Shown piece by piece: positions 52,672-55,377 of a stretch of DNA of 64,000 nucleotides. Source of the stretch: Sulfolobus sp. E5-1-F (GTDB lineage: Archaea > Thermoproteota > Thermoprotei_A > Sulfolobales > Sulfolobaceae); the NCBI RefSeq assembly GCF_009601705.1, contig NZ_CP045687.1, forward strand, positions 1,214,630 to 1,278,629, written 5' to 3'. The translations under genes and the position numbers were made by a program. The notes beneath the pieces are model-generated. The model worked only from the letters and a program-made list of their open reading frames with translations. It made no database searches and was not told the origin of the DNA. Positions within the stretch are counted from its first letter, which is position 1, and each line of letters starts with the position of its first letter.

Positions 52672-55377
<2,706 letters not shown>

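Follow-up and report, generated by a model that had tools for sequence, protein, structure and literature searches.

The amylase locus

The window, by which we mean the whole 64,000-nucleotide stretch of DNA analysed here, is part of a single archaeal contig of 2,543,529 bases, in a genome of 99.99% completeness. Judging from gene order and divergence, it may come from Saccharolobus, perhaps S. islandicus. Its minus strand, translated from position 55377 to 52672, is a continuous frame of 902 codons interrupted only once, at codon 328, by a TAA; the 573 codons lying 3' of this TAA hold no further stop. An earlier note on this DNA had proposed that the TAA at 54394-54396 splits a secreted GH57 amylase, the frame being the same on both sides and family sequence running on through the 24 codons past the stop. 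The split is confirmed by the translation and by the ten other complete orthologues, all of which are open, and the alignment bears out the continuity of frame and of family sequence. The features of the locus are collected in Table 1.

Table 1. Features of the interrupted amylase gene and its neighbours (window coordinates)
Feature	Position	Strand	Remark
Downstream part of amyA: end of third beta-domain, GH57 catalytic domain, C-terminal hydrophobic/charged tail	52672..54393	-	
Next in-frame ATG, ORF of 549 aa; inside first barrel strand, without signal sequence	54319..54321	-	
In-frame TAA, amyA codon 328	54394..54396	-	Translation and orthologue alignment
Probable translated remnant, about 319 codons: signal-like N-terminus, two related beta-modules, cut third beta-domain	54397..55353	-	
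Promoter-like block AGAAAAGTTTATAATGATAAAA	55369..55390	-	First 19 letters or more common to 5 of 5 aligned genomes
Divergent ABC transporter operon (binding protein, two permeases, MalK-like ATPase), intact	55601..60060	+	
Secreted/membrane GH15-like enzyme, intact	60057..61919	+	

When the stop is read through, the translation matches GH57 (Pfam PF03065) with 132.4 bits against a cut-off of 21.2, over model positions 1-288 of 291. The residues E506, D609 and E611, named as catalytic for AmyA of Sulfolobus solfataricus in the accessible part of PMC5023256, are found at the same positions of this frame, all of them downstream of the TAA. The orthologue from another genome of the genus, G002, fits the published AmyA numbering (902 aa, C31, G877 and K898, as these positions appear in the portion of PMC5023256 at hand), which identifies the gene as amyA. 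We conclude from its sequence that the interrupted gene is orthologous to that of AmyA, the alpha-amylase of family GH57 that S. solfataricus secretes. In Sulfolobus, this well-studied gene is a model both of secretion and of catabolite repression.

The ABC transporter and GH15-like enzyme next door had been described as intact in the earlier note, and both are indeed full length compared with their relatives. Across the genus (seven genomes compared), four genomes (G001, G003, G004 and G006) have the amylase, the transporter and the GH15 intact. In G002 (L042, about 1198-2463), the amylase is intact, but an IS-like insertion of about 1.26 kb, which has terminal inverted repeats and contains a transposase-like frame, interrupts the GH15 gene next to the maltodextrin transporter. 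Of the amylase, G005 (L045, about 9019-10137) has kept only a piece of the catalytic domain (approximately query residues 184-520); in the 19 kb examined there, no transporter, binding-module part or GH15 was matched, apart from a weak match of 65 residues to the ATPase. On these sequences, loss at the amylase locus is recurrent in the genus, and different genomes have dropped different parts.

The window's genome also has one other GH57 gene, further GH15 genes and GH13 genes. One GH15-like paralogue (L096, 751-2388) has 546 codons, compared with 612 to 632 in most related frames of the genus, and a transposase-like frame lies upstream of it. Within the window, positions 48467-50272 of the minus strand encode a 601-aa protein with a signal-like N-terminus, a hydrophobic C-terminal end and repeated TQYFV-type segments, for which no Pfam match was found.

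Orthologues, selection and reliability of the stop

A protein search was conducted on 41 genomes, with one genome per species, and gave matches in 19. Eleven of these, including the window's own, align over almost the entire query with at least 63% identity; a twelfth, G005, matched the query in part only. The ten other complete orthologues are open for 889 to 911 codons and align through the site of the TAA. Comparison of relatives had been suggested as a check on the stop, and all ten turned out to carry a sense codon there: the residue is Gln in G001, G002, G003, G006 and G009, Glu in G004 and, in more distant orthologues, Lys in G007 and Thr in G011, G012 and G020. The glutamine codon of the close relatives is one base away from TAA. 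Since the position varies (Q, E, T, K), no special residue is required at codon 328.

A scan of contigs yielded 11 amylase loci. The frame was complete in six (L003, L004, L005, L007, L009 and L013, of which L003 and L005 are apparently identical with the contigs of G011 and G007), three were partial (L006, L008 and L012) and two, from Vulcanisaeta (L010 and L011), were frame-broken. These last two orthologues come from draft genomes, and their broken frames may correspond to loss or to base-calling error. No relative was found in the viral contigs searched. A TAA at codon 328 was not reported in the literature searched, which does not prove it unpublished; in those sections of the S. islandicus LAL14/1 genome paper that were available (PMC3718332), amylase is mentioned only among the references.

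Selection was analysed with a codon model on five species and the 573 codons downstream of the TAA. Relaxed selection past the TAA was not found: omega was 0.077 on the window lineage, compared with 0.073 elsewhere (p = 0.87), and the likelihood profile rules out a downstream omega above about 0.14. Pairwise and lineage-specific counts agree with the codon model that the downstream half is unrelaxed. The best-scoring five-species tree differs between the two halves of the gene, and the tree is therefore not settled. In G002, the N-terminal half had a raised omega (p = 0.025, one of eight tests, uncorrected). That selection downstream is not relaxed implies that the stop is recent, or is a reading error, or is without effect. 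Recency is the simplest reading, error and readthrough predicting the same pattern. If the sequence has been neutral since the TAA appeared, the codon model would place the share of the branch elapsed without selection below roughly 7%.

The possibility that the TAA is a base-call or assembly error, the amylase being intact in the strain, must be weighed here. It would account for the unrelaxed downstream sequence, and two further genes in the same 64 kb, both encoding MFS transporters, are frame-broken, which points either to several fresh null alleles or to sequence errors. The first (1364-2840, minus strand) is broken near position 1725, within a run of seven G that is one base longer than the G001 stretch, the G001 gene having 492 codons; the second (44785-46160, plus strand) is broken near 45657, where one base is missing compared with G001 (458 codons). 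These breaks may nevertheless be real, as the G002 copy of the second gene also has an altered C-terminus. Moreover, the TAA is a substitution in complex sequence and not a homopolymer indel, the genome is in a single contig and 99.99% complete, and comparison with relatives shows the remaining genes in the vicinity of amyA to be unbroken. We consequently hold an error to be unlikely. Elsewhere in the window, positions 6701-6994 (minus strand) match a 105-codon ORF of G001; the match contains one stop, and this stretch may not be a gene.

Possible products on either side of the stop

The promoter-like block upstream of amyA, which we take to be a BRE/TATA element, has a TATA-like part ending 24 nt upstream of the ATG at 55353. 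The block AGAAAAGTTTATAATGATAAA, kept in all five aligned species, overlaps the first ATG (55377), and in G004 the ATG equivalent to 55377 is followed by an in-frame stop. For these reasons, amyA probably starts at ATG 55353, eight codons 3' of the start of the longest ORF, and is likely leaderless. The earlier note had foreseen a short secreted product of 327 residues; the ORF from 55377 does have 327 codons, but the probable start would yield about 319 residues.

AlphaFold models built from 7-sequence alignments (pLDDT 74 and 84) contain two beta-modules and a third beta-domain at about residues 241-337, codon 328 falling within strand 324-330 of the third. The TAA had been placed between the binding modules and the catalytic domain. 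It does precede the barrel, but in the predicted model it lies inside the third beta-domain and not in a linker, so that this domain would be cut before its last strands. The two N-terminal modules are alike (39% over 49 residues). The N-terminal part matches CBM_56 with 23.7 bits, under the cut-off of 27, and three of seven N-terminal parts match this family at E up to 1. The top fold match of the N-terminal product is the N-terminal domain of a starch isoamylase (Z 10.6), with unrelated FnIII entries at about 9, and the Foldseek matches listed for it are generic FnIII/Ig ones, so that other families may fit as well. Starch binding by the short product is plausible on the basis of sequence and model.

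Such a product might have been kept by selection as a secreted glucan-binding or decoy protein: its signal-like N-terminus and two modules are complete, the promoter block is conserved, and the upstream half is under purifying selection on the window lineage (omega 0.071). We find this very improbable, because the third beta-domain would be left without its last strands, the same short form is present in none of the ten relatives, and the assignment of the binding modules is below threshold. In addition, the downstream half is just as conserved, so that any selection on the short form would have had no time to leave a trace.

It is slightly less probable still that the locus makes two separate proteins, the downstream part starting independently at ATG 54321. 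An ORF of 549 aa exists, but its ATG falls within the first barrel strand, immediately ahead of the HQP motif, and is not followed by a signal sequence. ATG, GTG and TTG are absent from the 24 codons after the TAA, ATG 54321 being the first in-frame start. Furthermore, AmyA lacking the signal peptide failed to accumulate in S. solfataricus, according to the part of PMC5023256 that was accessible.

Low-level readthrough of the TAA as sense would let one gene yield two products, a short soluble protein with two modules and a membrane amylase of full length. Normal purifying selection on the downstream half fits a full protein still being made, and -1 frameshifting is known to underlie the expression of a Sulfolobus fucosidase gene (PMC8211752, in its accessible part). 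Against it, no UUA anticodon was called among the 46 tRNA genes found in the window's genome with intron-aware ARAGORN, and a suppressor tRNA for TAA was rejected on this basis. In bacterial mode, ARAGORN had given odd anticodons for intron-bearing tRNA genes, which the intron-aware run resolved; some intron-bearing assignments look doubtful (for example, L078, L080, L086, L087, L090 and L093), none of them being called UUA. The 60 nt past the TAA fold with -6.8 kcal/mol, compared with a mean of -6.2 (SD 2.3) for 200 mononucleotide shuffles; this is no structure beyond chance, and RNA structure as a readthrough signal was likewise rejected. As for programmed readthrough, there is thus no UUA tRNA called, no excess structure and a stop in none of the ten complete orthologues. 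The only types of archaeal recoding named in the available text of PMC8211752 are Sec, Pyl and -1 frameshifting. With no UUA tRNA called and the stop in no orthologue, the view of the earlier note that recoding is unlikely stands, and we give readthrough as little credit as two separate proteins.

A probable null allele compared with known systems

We estimate at about 0.8 the probability that the TAA is a recent natural nonsense (null) allele of amyA, an ordinary loss in a hot-spring archaeon and not a new reading of the code. A single-base change would have converted a glutamine codon into TAA in the gene of a secreted, membrane-associated GH57 alpha-amylase. Translation would then end inside the third beta-domain, before the catalytic barrel. 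Extracellular AmyA endo-amylase would be missing, and the cell would secrete no more than a short protein in which two carbohydrate-binding-like modules are followed by an incomplete third domain. Judged by analogy with the amyA mutants of S. solfataricus, the strain would no longer grow on polymeric starch but would still take up maltodextrins through the intact transporter; that it might use maltodextrins made by others, as the earlier note suggested, is a conjecture. The reality of the base, efficient termination and the growth phenotype are inferences here.

In S. solfataricus, deletion of the AmyA signal peptide led to no growth on starch and absence of activity, an amyA::lacS disruption strain being the negative control (from the accessible part of PMC5023256), and an amyA mutant no longer grew on starch, glycogen or pullulan, as stated in the portion available of a review (PMC9855744). 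By the same analogy, polymeric starch should be out of reach for the window strain, unless the GH15 or some other enzyme is sufficient. If true, a recent null amyA beside an intact transporter and GH15 would offer a ready test of the secreted amylase as a shared good that some strains drop. The amyA stop adds little that is new on translation, the mechanism being ordinary and the gene known.

The likeness to AmyA (SSO1172) of S. solfataricus is that of an orthologue at the same locus, the window frame keeping E506, D609 and E611 and the hydrophobic/charged C-terminus. It differs in stopping at codon 328 and in having Ser as residue 31, in place of C31, so that the cysteine of the Class II lipobox is absent; G001 and G006 have Ala at this position. 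The N-terminal signal and the C-terminal hydrophobic/charged motif are both encoded, and the TAA separates them, so that they would not belong to one polypeptide. For the read-through protein, the best PDB match in both sequence and fold is the amylopullulanase SmApu of Staphylothermus marinus (PDB 7e1y), with 19% identity in the fold alignment and a sequence match restricted to residues 339-703, the N-terminal modules lying outside. Finally, the alpha-L-fucosidase of S. solfataricus, as described in the accessible part of PMC8211752, is likewise an interrupted glycosidase gene in a Sulfolobus relative; it relies, however, on -1 frameshifting, whereas amyA has an in-frame stop at which no recoding signal was found.
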